From the IMG/VR virus record IMGVR_UViG_3300028007_000011, positions 1 to 20,096 of that record: a DNA stretch of 20,096 bases; one strand, written 5' to 3'. This DNA comes from a virus. The notes beneath the pieces are model-generated. The model saw only the letters and a list, made by a program, of their open reading frames with translations, was not told where the DNA came from and did not search any database. Numbering within the stretch: the first letter of the stretch is position 1; every line of letters starts with the position of its first letter. This document shows, piece by piece, positions 2 to 16,454 of the stretch. Made by a program: the position numbers and the translations under genes.

Positions 2-355
2 AATTTACTCCATGCTTCAAAGGTTGAGCACTATGTATTTCCCTTATCTGTAACCGATGAAGAGATAAAAGAGATAGTAGAATCCATAAACGGTTGCACC
101 CTAAAAAAGATTAAACACGGTGAACAGATGACCTATGCGTACTACTGGACACCGGATAACAGATCTAAGAAAGATGCACTTGATATGATTCTTAAAGTAC
201 GTGGACACTATGCACCTCAGAAGATATCACTACAGGATGATTACGACACATGGAGTAGTGACGACCTCGACAAGAAAATTGCAGAACTGCAAAACAAGGT
301 ACAAGCAAAAAGAGTAGACACTGATCCGCAAACAACAGACACCCAGACGCAATGA
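2..355 (+). CDS. terS: Terminase small subunit, C-terminal part (5' end outside window)
   Basis: The frame is open from base 2 to the stop at 353-355 (117 codons visible), so the gene enters from the left and the ATG at 128 is probably internal. Around residues 8-60 it reads KVEHYVFPLSVTDEEI, then GCTLKKIKHGE, then YYWTPDNRSKKDALDM. From memory this resembles small terminase subunits of phages, which bind the packaging site on phage DNA and regulate the large subunit. The C-terminus is polar and rich in Gln and Thr. The gene overlaps the next ORF by four bases (ATGA), the usual terS-terL arrangement and likely translational coupling. The family call rests on motif memory and on position; an unrelated DNA-binding protein is the alternative. 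Confidence 0.72.
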   Translation, partial: NLLHASKVEHYVFPLSVTDEEIKEIVESINGCTLKKIKHGEQMTYAYYWTPDNRSKKDALDMILKVRGHYAPQKISLQDDYDTWSSDDLDKKIAELQNKVQAKRVDTDPQTTDTQTQ

Positions 356-999
356 TTGATCTATCATTACTACCCGAAGAGGAGCAGTTAAAACAGCTCC
401 AACTTGTAAAGCTTAAAAGGTTACAAGAACAGCAGTACCGGTACTATACTCCAAACGGTAAGGCGGAATCATTTATTAAAATGGTTGGTGAGGATAAACA
501 CTTCATTAACTTATTCATTGCTGCTAACGGTGTCGGTAAAACTGCATGTCTAAGCAACATCATTGCTAACATTTTGTATACACCGAATAAGCCGTGGTTT
601 GATTATCCTCTTTATAATGACTTCCCTTATGTAAAGGCCGGTCGTATCATTTCAGACACGACAACAGTAACTAAGACCATAGTACCGGAGTTGCATAAAT
701 GGTTGCCTACAGGGCGTTACAAGACCTCAAAAGAGGCCAAGCAGTATGAATCCTTATGGACTACTGATACCGGTTTTAAATTCGATATCATGACGTATGA
801 GCAAGATCTAAAGCAGTTCGAATCCGCAACACTTGGCTTTATTATCTTTGATGAGCCACCACCTGAAGAGATCTTCAAGGCCTCTATTTCCCGTATGAGA
901 CGTGGAGGTATTATCATTTGTGGATTTACACCGTTGCAGGGTTCAGCATTCTTCTATGATAACTACGTAACAAGTGAATCAACGAGAATATATAATTAA
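352..999 (+). CDS. terL: Large terminase, N-terminal ATPase half (split gene)
   Basis: This 215-residue protein is the ATP-driven motor half of the large terminase, which pumps DNA through the portal. A Walker A motif, AANGVGKT, lies at residues 57-64. A Walker B motif, IIFDEP, lies at 164-169 with the catalytic Glu directly after the Asp. A coupling-type motif, GFTPLQGSAFFYDNY, follows at about 191-205. The protein then stops after TSESTRIYN, just where an intact enzyme would continue into its nuclease domain. The missing nuclease is encoded from 1531 onward, after four inserted small elements. The start overlaps the small subunit stop. The TAA stop is itself part of the very long ribosome binding site of the next ORF. 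No catalytic residue appears lost, so a working two-chain enzyme or RNA splicing are both possible. Confidence 0.9.
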   Translation: MIDLSLLPEEEQLKQLQLVKLKRLQEQQYRYYTPNGKAESFIKMVGEDKHFINLFIAANGVGKTACLSNIIANILYTPNKPWFDYPLYNDFPYVKAGRIISDTTTVTKTIVPELHKWLPTGRYKTSKEAKQYESLWTTDTGFKFDIMTYEQDLKQFESATLGFIIFDEPPPEEIFKASISRMRRGGIIICGFTPLQGSAFFYDNYVTSESTRIYN

Positions 1000-1009
1000 G
1001 GAGGTGATC
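997..1009 (+). promoter_or_regulatory. Extended Shine-Dalgarno site, 13 nt
   Basis: TAAGGAGGTGATC is complementary over its full 13 bases to the 3' tail of typical bacterial 16S rRNA (GATCACCTCCTTA). Its first three bases are the stop codon of the terminase ATPase ORF. The GGAGG core is 7 nt from the ATG at 1012. This is far longer than the usual 4-6 nt match and decides the start of the 18-codon ORF. Confidence 0.85.
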
Positions 1010-1011
1010 AT

Positions 1012-1068
1012 ATGGCCGGCAAGAAATGTAAAAAATGTGGTAAAACAGGATGCAGTAAGCACTATTAG
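1012..1068 (+). CDS. 18-residue Cys/Lys-rich micropeptide
   Basis: A tiny ORF encodes MAGKKCKKCGKTGCSKHY. Three Cys and one His (CKKCGKTGCSKH) are spaced like a small zinc knuckle, and seven of the 18 residues are Lys, His or similar basic residues, which would suit nucleic-acid or RNA contact. That reading is inference; the family is not recognised. Translation is strongly supported by the 13-nt Shine-Dalgarno match immediately upstream. It is the first element inside the split terminase and is followed after a few bases by a long hairpin. The alternative is that the ORF is a leader peptide whose translation controls the hairpin or the downstream genes. Confidence 0.6.
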   Translation: MAGKKCKKCGKTGCSKHY

Positions 1069-1075
1069 CTCATTG

Positions 1076-1156
1076 CCTGAAGGTTGGTAGCTCTAGCAGT
1101 TACATGATGGGCTGTCATAGTTAACAAACAGATGCTATGAGTTACCAGCCTTTAGG
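1076..1156 (+). other. Long RNA hairpin with inner stem-loop
   Basis: Bases 1076-1093 pair with 1139-1156 in an uninterrupted 18-bp stem with three G-U pairs. After a one-base bulge (1138), 1094-1098 pair with 1133-1137. Inside, 1099-1102 pair with 1122-1125 and 1104-1107 with 1115-1118, closing a seven-base loop. CTGT at 1112-1115 could alternatively pair with ACAG at 1128-1131. The structure ends about one base before the Shine-Dalgarno site of the gene at 1169. There is no T-run, so it is not an intrinsic terminator. It also lacks tRNA features such as a T-loop. Possible roles are a translation or stability element, or part of a self-splicing or mobile element in the split terminase. Confidence 0.7.
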
Positions 1157-1168
1157 AAAGGAGGAACG

Positions 1169-1426
1169 ATGCCAAAGTATAGAAAATTACCGGTTGAAGT
1201 AGATGCTGAGCAATTCTTACCAGAGCTAGGAGTATTCCCTAAAGGAGTACTGTACGGCAAGGGCGGATTTGTTATTGAGACATTAGAGGGCAAGATGCGT
1301 TGTAAGTCCGGTGATTGGATTATTACCGGTGTGAAGGGTGAGAAGTACCCTTGCAAAGATGAAGTATTCAAGCTGACCTATGAAAAAGTTGGAGAAGAAA
1401 GGAAAGCTAGTGAATCATTGGTATAG
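1169..1426 (+). CDS. Small phage protein, PGDYG-type (GDWIITGVKGEKYPCK motif)
   Basis: This 85-residue protein begins MPKYRKLPVEVDAEQF. It has the block ETLEGKMRCKSGDWIITGVKG and YPCKDEVFKLTYEKV toward its end. From memory this pattern marks a widespread small phage family often annotated as a PGDYG-domain protein. Its function is not established. A strong Shine-Dalgarno site (AAGGAGG, 4-nt spacing) lies just after the hairpin. Its position between the two halves of the large terminase is unusual, since such genes normally lie elsewhere as free cargo. Its last 17 bases overlap the next small ORF, so the two are likely co-translated. Confidence 0.78.
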   Translation: MPKYRKLPVEVDAEQFLPELGVFPKGVLYGKGGFVIETLEGKMRCKSGDWIITGVKGEKYPCKDEVFKLTYEKVGEERKASESLV

Positions 1427-1541
1427 GATATTACTTATTGTACTTGGTATTACCCTTGTCTATTCCTCACAGTGGTATTTAGTAACGCTTGGAGGCATAC
1501 TACTAGGGCTACTTGTTATCTTAATTGCGTATGGATTCTAA
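1410..1541 (+). CDS. 43-residue small membrane protein
   Basis: A GTG-initiated ORF preceded by AGGAAAG encodes 43 residues. Two hydrophobic stretches (about residues 7-18, ILLIVLGITLVY, and 24-41, LVTLGGILLGLLVILIAY) are separated by a short polar turn, SSQWY. This predicts a two-pass membrane hairpin or a single long membrane segment. It overlaps the end of the preceding gene by 17 bases and the start of the terminase nuclease ORF by 11, so ribosomes finishing it could re-initiate on the nuclease. Holins and related membrane peptides share this architecture, but nothing specific identifies it as one. Overlap with coding DNA on both sides weakens the case a little. Confidence 0.5.
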   Translation: MNHWYRILLIVLGITLVYSSQWYLVTLGGILLGLLVILIAYGF

Positions 1542-2400
1542 TAACTATCAACGATCAATAGGCCTTGTTGAAGCAGATGTAGAGGCAAACTGTAAAAAAC
1601 ATGGGGTACGTGGCATACTTGAACATGCGGATATCATGAAGATTATATCTGAGTATTCAGATGAGGATAAGCAAGCTCGTATCTTCGGTAAATTCCAGCA
1701 CTTAACAGGCTTAGTATTTAAAGAGTTTAAACGCAACATTCATGTCATCAAGCCATTTGATATTAACCCCCGTGATTACGTGGTAGTTGAAGCACTCGAC
1801 ACCCATACCAGAAATGAAGATGCGGTAGTATGGATGGCAATAGATAGATATGGAAGAAAGATAGTTATTGATGAAATCTACGAACACTACACCACATCAG
1901 AGCTAGCAGCCAAGATCAAACATAAGAGCCAAAACTATAGAGTAGTAAAGCGTGTTATAGATCCTTCAGCCGATATTGTAGATCAACACTCCGGTAGGTC
2001 TTTAAAGTCAGATCTTTACAACATGGGGTTAGATTATGACTTAGGATCTAAGCAGAGGCATAGAGCAACACAATTGATTAAGGATGAACTGCACTACACT
2101 ATATCCGGCAATCAGATACTTAAAGCACCAACGCTATATTTCTTTAGTAGTTGCACTCGTTCTATTTGGGAAATGGAACATTGGCAGTATGGCGAGTGGA
2201 CAGGTAAAACAGCTCAAACAAGAAGCCCTAATGAAAAGCCGGTCGATAAAGATGATCACTGCATAGAAGATATAGGCCGGTGCCTCTTGACTGATACGCA
2301 TTTTTCACCCATGATAGAAGAGGTACAAAACTACGGTACACAATTTGTTGATGATACGGCACCTGCTATATCACCAGCAACGGTAGACCCGTATGCGTAA
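1531..2400 (+). CDS. terL: Large terminase, C-terminal nuclease half (split gene)
   Basis: This 289-residue protein supplies the RNase H-fold nuclease that cuts phage DNA at the start and end of packaging. The linker EADVEANCKKHGVRG is followed by QARIFGKFQHLTGLVF, typical of the end of the ATPase and start of the nuclease domain. Acidic candidates for metal binding are D90 (in ALDTHTR), D144 (in VIDPSAD) and D241/D242-H243 (KDDHCIED). An in-frame TAA at 1522-1524 prevents extension upstream, so translation starts at TTG 1525 or ATG 1531. I prefer ATG, although neither has a clear Shine-Dalgarno site. Re-initiation from the overlapping 43-residue ORF is likely. With the ATPase half it sums to about 504 residues, a normal full terminase length. 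Confidence 0.88.
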   Translation: MDSNNYQRSIGLVEADVEANCKKHGVRGILEHADIMKIISEYSDEDKQARIFGKFQHLTGLVFKEFKRNIHVIKPFDINPRDYVVVEALDTHTRNEDAVVWMAIDRYGRKIVIDEIYEHYTTSELAAKIKHKSQNYRVVKRVIDPSADIVDQHSGRSLKSDLYNMGLDYDLGSKQRHRATQLIKDELHYTISGNQILKAPTLYFFSSCTRSIWEMEHWQYGEWTGKTAQTRSPNEKPVDKDDHCIEDIGRCLLTDTHFSPMIEEVQNYGTQFVDDTAPAISPATVDPYA

Positions 2401-12893: not shown

Positions 12894-15800
12894 ATGGCAC
12901 AGCTTTTACTCAAAGAAGATGCAGATAAACTACTCCTAGAGACGGGTGATGATCTTGTTCTTGAAGCTTACGTAGATCTTGATTCTCCTACTGATGGTGC
13001 TTCAGTAACTACAACTCCTACACTTGAATTTACCGGTGATGATCCACAGGGCGATTCGATAGCGTATCACCTGCAAGTCCACACAAGTAGTACGTTTCCT
13101 CAAATTCAAGTCGATAACAGATGGCAACAAGCGGCTCCCACCCTCTCATCTTCTATCACGCAAAGTATCACTGTTGCGTCAAATACTGATCGCTTACTTG
13201 TTGTCAAAATTGTTAACTGGGGAGGAACTGCAAATAGGACTGTTTCAAGTATTACAGCCAATGGTGATGCATTGACTCGGGCAACTGGTATTGAAAATAC
13301 AAATGGACTGACTAAACAAAATGTTGAGATATGGTATTTAGTCAATCCCGATGTTGGTACCTATGACGTTGTTGCAACGATGAATGGCCAAGCTGAAGGC
13401 TTGAATATTCATGTCACTTCTTTATATGGAGCAAAGCAGACGGGTCAACCACTAACAACTAGGACTCTTGCTGGAAGCTATACATCTCAATCACTCTCCT
13501 TTTTTGTCCAAAAATTCGGAGCATGGGGTTTTGATGCTATTGCTGATAACACTAATTCAATGACTCCTAATGCGGGTCAAACAACTGACTTAAATCAAGA
13601 TGGCGGTACATCAATGGGAAGTTATGAAGAATTTACGAATATCGGTAATCAGTCAATGGGCTGGACTTGGTCGGGCACTGAAGAAATGTCTTATTGTCTA
13701 GCTGTATTTGCACCCTCAGAACCTACTATTGATGCGTATTCAGGCATAGGACAACAAACAGATACGTTTGATAATTCTAGTACATGGACGGTACCGGCCG
13801 GTGTAACGTCAATACTTGTTAAGGCGTGGGGTGCCGGTGGAGGCTCAGGCGGTAACTCAGGTACAATTCGAGGCTCCGGAGGTGGAGGCGGTGCCTATTC
13901 TGAAAAGACAATAGCGGTAACTCCGGGAACGTCTTATACCGTTAGTCCGGGAACGGCCGGTACCGGTGGTGCAACGAACAATAACGGTACAGCCGGTGGT
14001 GATTCCTATTTTGATAATACTTCAGTTCTACTTGCTAAGGGAGGCGGTGCCGGTAACGTAGGAGGCGGTACGGTTGGTGCAGGAGGACTAGCGTCCGGTG
14101 GTGTTGGTGATACCAAAACGTCAGGCGGTAACGGTGGTATTGGTGCAGCAGGCGGTGTTGGAGGTGCAGGAGGAGGCTCCGGAGGCTCAACCGGATCAGG
14201 AGGCAATGCGTCAGGTGGTACAGCCGGTATTGCAGGCACGGGAGGCGGTGCAGCAGGAGGAGACAACGGCGTTGGAAACGCACCCGGAGGTGGAGGCGGT
14301 GCCCTTGATGCAGGAGCCGGTTCTAATGGTGGAACAGGTCGTGTTAGTATTACCTATACCCCTTCATCAACAGGTTTTGTTAACCCAGACAACGGATCCG
14401 ATACAGCACCATTTGATGATGCTAACAATATCCAATACACCGTACAGTCAGCGTTACCGGCAGGAACCTATTATTGGAGAGTGCGAGGCATTGATCCATC
14501 GGGATCTAACACATGGTCGTTATGGAGTGAAATTAGATCATTTGTTGTAGTAGCCGGTGGAGCATATACAAAAGACCTTACTGAGACATTAATACTTAGT
14601 GAAAGCTTTTTACGAAGTATTACACGAACAAGAACAGATACAGCTACCCTATCTGAATCAATCGTGAAAAGTGCTACACGGCTTCTTACTGAATCAACAA
14701 CACTCACTGAGACAATGACGAAGCGACCGGCTAAAACATTCTCAGAATCAGTAAGTCTTACTGAAGTGTTCGCTCGCCTTTTTACGCTTGTACGGTCATA
14801 TACAGAAGGCATAACGGCCTCTGATTCGATAACCAAACAAAGCGCAAGAACGTTAACCGATGCTGCAACGGCAGCAGATACTATTACTAAGCAAACCGGT
14901 AAGAGTATATTAGATAGTGCAACTGCTACTGATACGATATCAAAACAAGCCGGTAAACGACCGACTGAAACTATTACCTTAACTGAGACAATGACCCGTA
15001 TCTTTACTCTTGTTCGTAGTTATACAGAATCAGTAACCATGAGTGAGGTGTTTACGAAGGTTATTACCCGTATTCAAACAGAAGCCGTTACCATAGCTGA
15101 GATCTTTACTAAAGTTGCAACCCTTGCCCGTAGCTTAACAGACAGCGTAACAGCAACCGATACCATATCTAAACAGGAAGGTAAAAACGTTAGCGAAAGC
15201 GTTACCCTTACTGAAACGTATACACCGGTTAAGGGTAAGACATTTGCAGATACCCTTAATTTAACCGATACACTATCCAAGCTTTATACTCTTATCCGAT
15301 CTGAGGTAGTGAGTCTTACTGAAGCCTTTACCCGTACTTTTACCCTTGTTAGAAGTTACTTAGAATCAATTGCGATGAGTGAAGTGCTAACAAGAAGCAG
15401 TACCCGTACCGTAACAGATAGTACTACTCCATCTGATTCTATCCAAAAGAGTACATCAAAAACCCGAACTGATAGTATTACCCTATCTGAAGTACTAGAG
15501 CGACTAATTACATATGGCAGGACGTTTGCAGAATCCTTAACCCTTACTGAGACATTTACCAAGCTTCAAGCGCATGTTAGGTCGCTTACCGATTCTATTA
15601 CTTCATCTGAGGTGATAACCAAGGCAATAACCAGAACTCGTACCGATACGACCACAATGGTTGAGATATTTACCAAAGTAGCTACTCTTGCACGTACTGT
15701 TACTGATTCCATATCAGTTACAGAAGTATTTACGAAACTGACAGGAAAAAATACTACTGATACAGTAAGTACTAGTGAGACGATAACACGACAAACCAGT

Positions 15801-16454
15801 AAGAGGGTAAGCGATACAACAACACTTAGCGAGGTGTTAACAAAGGTTGGTACATTTGCACGTACCTTAACCGATTCTATTACCCTTACTGATTCGTTTA
15901 CACGTCTTTTTAACCGGTCATTGAGTGATGCCCTTACCTTAACTGATACGATTAGACGATCAGTTACACGATCTATGAGTGATGGAGTAACTACCGTTGA
16001 TATCTTCTTCAAGCAGGCTAATAAGTTCTTTACTGATAGCATGTCACTTACTGAGATCTTTGAGGCAACGGGTGATAAGATTAAACTCTTTACTGAATCA
16101 ATCACTATGACTGATTCATTACTTCGTTCGTACACCAAAACCCTTACTGAATCAATTACGATGAGCGAGATTTATACTAGAATTGCCAACTTCACTAAGG
16201 CACTAACAGACAGCGTAACCATGAGTGAAGCCTTTACGTCACTGCTCACATATGGAAGGATCTTAACCGATTCTATTACCCTTACTGAAACCTTTCTGCG
16301 ATCAATGACACGATCATTTGTTGATGTAACACACCTAACCGAGATATTTAGAAAAGCTAATAGAGGGTGGACAAAGATATCTAAGGCTGTTGCCGAGTGG
16401 GGCAAGATCTCCAAAGCAACAAGCCTATGGACAAAGCAAGGCAAACCTGAGTAA
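12894..16454 (+). CDS. Large modular adhesin / receptor-binding fibre (1186 residues)
   Basis: After a short KEDADKLLLETGDDLVLE leader, residues 29-70 look like the front of an Fn3-like domain (SPTDGASVTTTPTLEFTG). Its back half appears only at 490-552 (NPDNGSDTAPF, QYTVQSALPAGTYYWRVRG). Two domains sit between. One at about 75-275 contains DRLLVVKIVNWGG, SSITANGDALT and VEIWYLVNPDVGTYDV. A Gly-rich one at 293-490 runs from WTVPAGVTSILVKAWGAGG to GRVSITY. Residues 563-1158 are 32 tandem 18- or 20-residue repeats, and 1159-1186 form a Trp/Lys cap with Trp every ten residues. It likely recognises the host. No signal peptide or Shine-Dalgarno site is seen. Confidence 0.8.
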   Translation: MAQLLLKEDADKLLLETGDDLVLEAYVDLDSPTDGASVTTTPTLEFTGDDPQGDSIAYHLQVHTSSTFPQIQVDNRWQQAAPTLSSSITQSITVASNTDRLLVVKIVNWGGTANRTVSSITANGDALTRATGIENTNGLTKQNVEIWYLVNPDVGTYDVVATMNGQAEGLNIHVTSLYGAKQTGQPLTTRTLAGSYTSQSLSFFVQKFGAWGFDAIADNTNSMTPNAGQTTDLNQDGGTSMGSYEEFTNIGNQSMGWTWSGTEEMSYCLAVFAPSEPTIDAYSGIGQQTDTFDNSSTWTVPAGVTSILVKAWGAGGGSGGNSGTIRGSGGGGGAYSEKTIAVTPGTSYTVSPGTAGTGGATNNNGTAGGDSYFDNTSVLLAKGGGAGNVGGGTVGAGGLASGGVGDTKTSGGNGGIGAAGGVGGAGGGSGGSTGSGGNASGGTAGIAGTGGGAAGGDNGVGNAPGGGGGALDAGAGSNGGTGRVSITYTPSSTGFVNPDNGSDTAPFDDANNIQYTVQSALPAGTYYWRVRGIDPSGSNTWSLWSEIRSFVVVAGGAYTKDLTETLILSESFLRSITRTRTDTATLSESIVKSATRLLTESTTLTETMTKRPAKTFSESVSLTEVFARLFTLVRSYTEGITASDSITKQSARTLTDAATAADTITKQTGKSILDSATATDTISKQAGKRPTETITLTETMTRIFTLVRSYTESVTMSEVFTKVITRIQTEAVTIAEIFTKVATLARSLTDSVTATDTISKQEGKNVSESVTLTETYTPVKGKTFADTLNLTDTLSKLYTLIRSEVVSLTEAFTRTFTLVRSYLESIAMSEVLTRSSTRTVTDSTTPSDSIQKSTSKTRTDSITLSEVLERLITYGRTFAESLTLTETFTKLQAHVRSLTDSITSSEVITKAITRTRTDTTTMVEIFTKVATLARTVTDSISVTEVFTKLTGKNTTDTVSTSETITRQTSKRVSDTTTLSEVLTKVGTFARTLTDSITLTDSFTRLFNRSLSDALTLTDTIRRSVTRSMSDGVTTVDIFFKQANKFFTDSMSLTEIFEATGDKIKLFTESITMTDSLLRSYTKTLTESITMSEIYTRIANFTKALTDSVTMSEAFTSLLTYGRILTDSITLTETFLRSMTRSFVDVTHLTEIFRKANRGWTKISKAVAEWGKISKATSLWTKQGKPE
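14580..16367 (+). repeat. 32 tandem 54/60-bp protein-coding repeats (TDS type), copy set B
   Basis: Residues 563-1158 divide into 20 units of 18 residues, 11 of 20 and a last one of 16. Walking these lengths from residue 563 lands exactly on residue 1143 for the last unit, which supports the register. A typical unit reads TDSITLTETFTK then a variable part ending before the next T-[DE]. The 20-residue form adds two residues near the end (as in FTLVRSY). Units are diverged in DNA, so this is not a recent array. Confidence 0.88.

Follow-up and report, generated by a model that had tools for sequence, protein, structure and literature searches.

A phage large terminase gene split in two, probably encoding a two-chain motor, with a cargo slot at the break

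Several phage genes are known in pieces: nrdA-a and nrdA-b of Aeromonas phage Aeh1 (split by mobE), gene 60 of the T4 topoisomerase (with mobA) and genes 43A and 43B of phages 25 and 44RR; the split NrdA and gp43 proteins are reported to work (PMC2988022). The large terminase gene (terL) can also be interrupted. Spliced terL introns have been documented in Bastillevirinae (PMC11878797), in Jug phages (PMC12363816) and in ICP1, in which apparent start and stop codons are spliced out (PMC10448857), and the herpesvirus terminase gene UL15 has an intron that contains UL16 and UL17 or different genes (PMC3079670). Here we analyse an interrupted terL in a 20,096-nucleotide stretch of viral DNA from IMG/VR (the window). 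The gene is divided in two, and we consider it very probable that the parts are separate cistrons, that their products work as a two-chain large terminase (TerL) and that the break later became a slot for cargo genes.

The first terminase ORF of the window, chain A, lies on the plus strand at 352–999 (215 amino acids). Its ATG overlaps the stop codon of the upstream gene (ATGA), and its C terminus, TSESTRIYN, is followed by TAA. Chain A carries the ASCE ATPase core, with a Walker A P-loop (AANGVGKT), a Walker B motif complete with its acid and glutamate (IIFDE) and motif III (TP, within FTPL); residues N59, G60, G62, K63, T64, D167, E168, T193 and P194 are conserved. Chain B (1531–2400, plus strand; 289 amino acids) joins the ATPase lid subdomain (about residues 10–60) to an RNase H-fold nuclease (about residues 60–255), the acidic residues of which, D90, E115 and D242, are invariant. 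An in-frame TAA at 1522–1524 stands ahead of chain B, and TTG 1525 and ATG 1531 are candidate starts; the latter seems the better choice, because it is aligned with the start codons of relatives, and counted from there the chains total 504 amino acids. Both halves were matched as terminase in PHROGs, the packaging ATPase with phrog_2 terminase (E = 3.5 × 10−5), and the best PDB matches of chain B are the terminases 5OE9, 4DKW and 5M1F. The two TerL activities are thus found not on one polypeptide but on two ORFs with intervening stops, here as in all 15 split lineages described below. The catalytic positions listed are kept in both chains in each of these lineages, apart from nuclease position 144, which is Asp in 14 and Glu in one; Glu also occurs there in some fused relatives. 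Such retention of motifs in both chains across large divergence argues for function. An earlier note on this DNA had given the same coordinates, stops and starts for both halves, and had remarked that the key motifs are retained over a total of about 504 residues, all of which we reproduced.

Where the break falls in the fold was read from the terminase of Geobacillus phage D6E, which a profile of the fused relatives matched with E = 5 × 10−16; N169, Y213, M216 and R224 of the published structure (PMC5727402) were placed on the alignment, where the numbering is offset by 3. The break corresponds to about residues 187–192 of D6E, past motif III and ahead of the lid; Y213 of the lid follows some 20–25 residues later, and the inter-domain linker (230–241) about 40 residues later. 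The Pfam terminase N-terminal model PF03237 spans the break in the fused relative L017 (residues 49–264; a sub-threshold match, below the curated cut-off), and an AlphaFold model of L017 puts it between a helix (193–200) and a strand (208–213), with the lid helices next. The earlier note had the gene split exactly between ATPase and nuclease; the split stands, but by the D6E alignment it is the ATPase domain itself that is broken, with the ASCE core on one side and the lid plus nuclease on the other. When chain B was modelled alone, the nuclease was confident and residues 1–60 were poor, as expected if the lid requires its partner chain. The lid of D6E touches the P-loop through Y213 and R44 (PMC5727402). 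Coupling of ATP hydrolysis with the lid is ascribed to R44. Because this P-loop-contacting element travels on chain B, chain A would not make a complete ATPase on its own.

IMG/VR was searched with both terminase halves, giving well over a hundred terminase loci, the ORFs of which were sorted by profiles. TerL is one continuous ORF in about 77 distinct relatives. It is split at the same loop in 17 contigs from many metagenomes, or 15 lineages with the window included, a hand count from contigs that are mostly fragments and that may include one frame error (L174, in which the ORFs overlap). As in other genes in pieces, a gene that is fused in relatives stands here as two ORFs with both halves conserved; the homing endonuclease expected at the break of such genes is absent from the window, and an HNH gene occurs there only in L155. 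Five lineages are split with no insert, their junctions being a TAATG overlap in L009 and TAATATG in L081 (with L082), L026, L152 and L197. Elsewhere the halves are separated by 20 nt (L011), 36 nt (L013 and L014) or 84 nt (L004), and in L013 and L004 both ORFs share one frame. Longer junctions hold two small Cys-containing ORFs (318 bp; L153), a membrane peptide and a 96-amino-acid phage protein, phrog_11049 (450 bp; L028), an MT-A70 adenine methyltransferase (566 bp; L159:1542–2105), an HNH endonuclease with a weak NUMOD3 motif (about 440 bp; L155:900–1346) or several small ORFs (794 bp; L024). Because the sisters of the window are split with or without an insert, its own insert is cargo acquired after the split.

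Outside IMG/VR, the matches inspected among annotated phages were all distant (<40% identity) single-ORF terminases, none of them split. A four-sequence nuclease profile matched one contig in prokaryote genomes, L079, in which TerL is fused, and a plasmid search gave one distant match. L079 lies within a Candidatus Kerfeldbacteria MAG contig, which hints that some members of the family have hosts in candidate phyla. In another relative, L066 (1627–4146), a fused TerL carries an in-frame, intein-like insert of about 340 amino acids with a LAGLIDADG domain. It sits at the lid cysteine (between ESV and C at one end and between GN and C at the other), 12–15 residues downstream of the split point.

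A 54-taxon tree built from the core and nuclease together, with the long-branch L072 and L008 excluded, contains a wholly split clade of six, namely the window, L024, L028, L081, L004 and L009 (support 98/99). The split or fused state has to change seven times, and well-supported branches force five of these changes; a single clade of all splits is rejected (AU test, p = 0.0001; p = 0.005 for an earlier set of nine). Repeated gain and gain with re-fusion both fit the change counts and cannot be told apart by them. TerL is also mosaic in these phages: rapid trees built for each half on its own disagree. The split L152 is 76–78% identical to the fused L165, and over 16 residues the C terminus of its core resembles that of the window's clade; judging from those residues, recombination could have carried in the split end. 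That the content of the slot differs by lineage (small peptides, MT-A70, HNH) suggests a genes-in-pieces origin like that of Aeh1 nrdA. A homing endonuclease may first have opened the slot, as in that gene: the HNH gene of L155 and the intein near the break in L066 support such an origin, and the case is weakened because an endonuclease occupies the slot in only one of the 15 lineages.

In the window, the stop of chain A and the start of chain B are 531 bp apart, and the gap bears genes. Its inventory is as the earlier note had listed it, all on the plus strand: a Cys micropeptide, a hairpin, a PGDYG-type gene and a membrane peptide, with no endonuclease anywhere in the window. The micropeptide (18 amino acids, MAGKKCKKCGKTGCSKHY; 1012–1068) has a complete 12-base Shine–Dalgarno match at 998–1009, and a DNA-pattern search of viral contigs found no exact relative of it. 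The long RNA hairpin (1076–1156), which had no Rfam match, was called from its folding energy (−43.6 kcal/mol for 1064–1168, z = −6.2); its outer pairs reach the ribosome-binding site of the gene that follows, and it may be a regulatory element. That gene (1169–1426) encodes a PGDYG-type small phage protein of 85 amino acids, carried as cargo (phrog_419, E = 3 × 10−28; Pfam PGDYG, only 0.0042). The ORF of the membrane micropeptide (1380–1541) encodes 53 amino acids, or 43 if GTG 1410 is the start, and at its 3′ end it shares 11 nt with the start of chain B. Both the window (998–1156) and L024 (4849–4972) encode a very small basic peptide behind a strong Shine–Dalgarno sequence, and a stable hairpin comes next; the pair resembles a leader peptide or a regulatory element.

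A self-splicing RNA was among the options in the earlier note. Were the insert a group I, group II or other intron, the mature mRNA would encode one terminase, for which the spliced terL genes of ICP1, Bastillevirinae and Jug phages are precedents; start and stop codons alone are insufficient to exclude splicing, because ICP1 removes such codons in this way (PMC10448857). A U...G join that preserves the reading frame does exist at terL, as the note had pointed out, where we count 72 allowed joins. The test nevertheless carries no weight, because all 15 other adjacent gene pairs tested also pass it, with 17–57 joins in each. The covariance-model search that the note had proposed was run against Rfam: the intron models had no match in the window or in the loci of ten relatives, nothing matched at the gathering threshold, and a relaxed threshold gave only chance snoRNA matches. 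Relatives without an insert, which an intron should leave continuous, remain split (L009, L081, L026, L152 and L197), so splicing is unnecessary for the split; the fused relatives are not the window's nearest kin. Moreover, the inserts of sister lineages are unrelated gene sets, and that of the window is packed with plausible small genes that have ribosome-binding sites. The Rfam result, the insert-less split relatives and the join-test control together lead us to reject a group I or group II intron, and we regard an intron of any kind as very improbable. Still less credit goes to the idea that the split is an inactivating lesion, an error of sequencing or a chimeric assembly. Metagenome contigs can carry frame errors, L174 perhaps among them, but the break is found again in independent contigs, including the L013/L014 pair (with an identical junction) and the L081/L082 pair, each drawn from different samples; both halves retain catalytic residues over large divergence, and the gap in the window is 531 bp of gene-bearing sequence rather than an indel. 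Recurrence of the break rules out sequencing error, and the split is real. Of the two grounds on which the earlier note would have given up a functional split, an artefact thus fails, and a full-length TerL elsewhere in the genome was not seen in the records of eight relatives that were searched, although most relatives, like the 20-kb window record, are fragments.

Least probable of all is a rejoining of the halves during or after translation, by a split intein, frameshift or readthrough. The TerL intein of L066 lies just downstream of the break, and the shared frame of L013 and L004 makes readthrough conceivable in these two. However, chain A ends 22 residues past the start of the motif III TP and chain B opens about 13 residues ahead of the lid strand, leaving no space for an intein half on either; neither chain matched a Hint or intein domain, and a split intein was rejected on both counts. 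Recoding in the window is ruled out by the 531-bp stop-to-start gap. An unlikely arrangement, though one to be taken more seriously, is that the chains stay apart, with chain A forming a packaging ring like that of phi29 gp16 and chain B acting only as a separate maturation nuclease. The phi29 motor has merely a vestigial nuclease domain (PMC7672431), and separate cistrons would permit unequal amounts of the two chains. Against this, the lid carried by chain B contacts the P-loop in D6E (Y213–R44; PMC5727402), and chain A alone would lack part of the ATPase.

We favour a two-chain terminase with cargo added by recombination, also an option in the earlier note and one borne out by relatives that are split without an insert or with different inserts. 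Chain A would supply the ASCE core and chain B the lid and nuclease, each translated separately from one operon by stop–start coupling or from its own ribosome-binding site. At bare junctions, the overlap suggests coupling between the preceding stop and translation of chain B; in the window, chain B has no clear Shine–Dalgarno sequence and its translation is seemingly coupled to that of the membrane peptide, which could shift the chain ratio. Each subunit of the packaging ring would arise when the two chains re-associate through the core–lid interface, and the product is likely to be an obligate two-chain motor of ASCE core plus lid–nuclease. The split is older than the window's insert, and the break then became a slot into which small cargo genes were inserted. 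The packaging function of the two-chain TerL is our inference, as is, more weakly, an endonuclease origin of the slot. More tentatively, and with slightly less than even confidence, we picture a stably heteromeric motor in which the lid acts in trans with the nuclease, ATP hydrolysis and DNA cutting are joined only by assembly, the slot trades cargo and phages may swap halves with one another, L152 being a possible case.

In viral DNA packaging, the way in which the ATPase core drives lid and nuclease is debated, and models assume one chain. Natural motors cut between core and lid would test the need for a covalent link between them, and a two-chain TerL would be a ready-made split system for reconstitution. 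Annotation and TerL-based phage trees can miss or halve such genes, and the terL junction could serve as a marker for cargo genes. A single essential gene in fused, bare-split, cargo-split, HNH-at-break and intein-nearby states is also a rare series in which to watch gene splitting. Among the neighbouring genes of the window, a J-domain (DnaJ-like) protein is encoded at 2402–2752, between chain B and the portal gene; L003 and L004 have apparent methyltransferase and glycosyltransferase genes in its place. At 12894–16454 lies the gene for a 1,186-amino-acid tail protein with a long run of LTDSITLTETF-like repeats.

In the literature covered, a partial set that makes absence weak evidence, we came across no account of a two-chain terL that is unspliced and split throughout a clade. 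Close likenesses are Aeh1 nrdA, T4 gene 60 and genes 43A/43B, in which the product of an essential gene is likewise made as two chains, each translated separately, and a mobile gene or spacer parts their cistrons; the present case differs in that the gene is a terminase, the window has no endonuclease, the split spans a clade and is recurrent, and the cargo changes. Extra sequence likewise interrupts terL in ICP1, SIOphi and phiAGATE, the Jug phages, Campylobacter phage IBB_35 and Mic1. There, terL is spliced, or predicted to be, at the RNA or protein level, whereas the split terL described here has no detectable intron or intein and insert-less relatives are split. Herpesvirus UL15 shares a gene-bearing stretch of lineage-dependent content within terminase coding sequence, but its parts are joined by spliceosomal splicing in the nucleus and its cargo is mostly on the opposite strand. 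For chain B and for a fused relative, the nearest solved fold is that of the D6E terminase (PDB 5OE8–5OEE), a single chain with arginine R44 in its P-loop, where the whole family described here has glycine (within residues 57–64 of the window's chain A).
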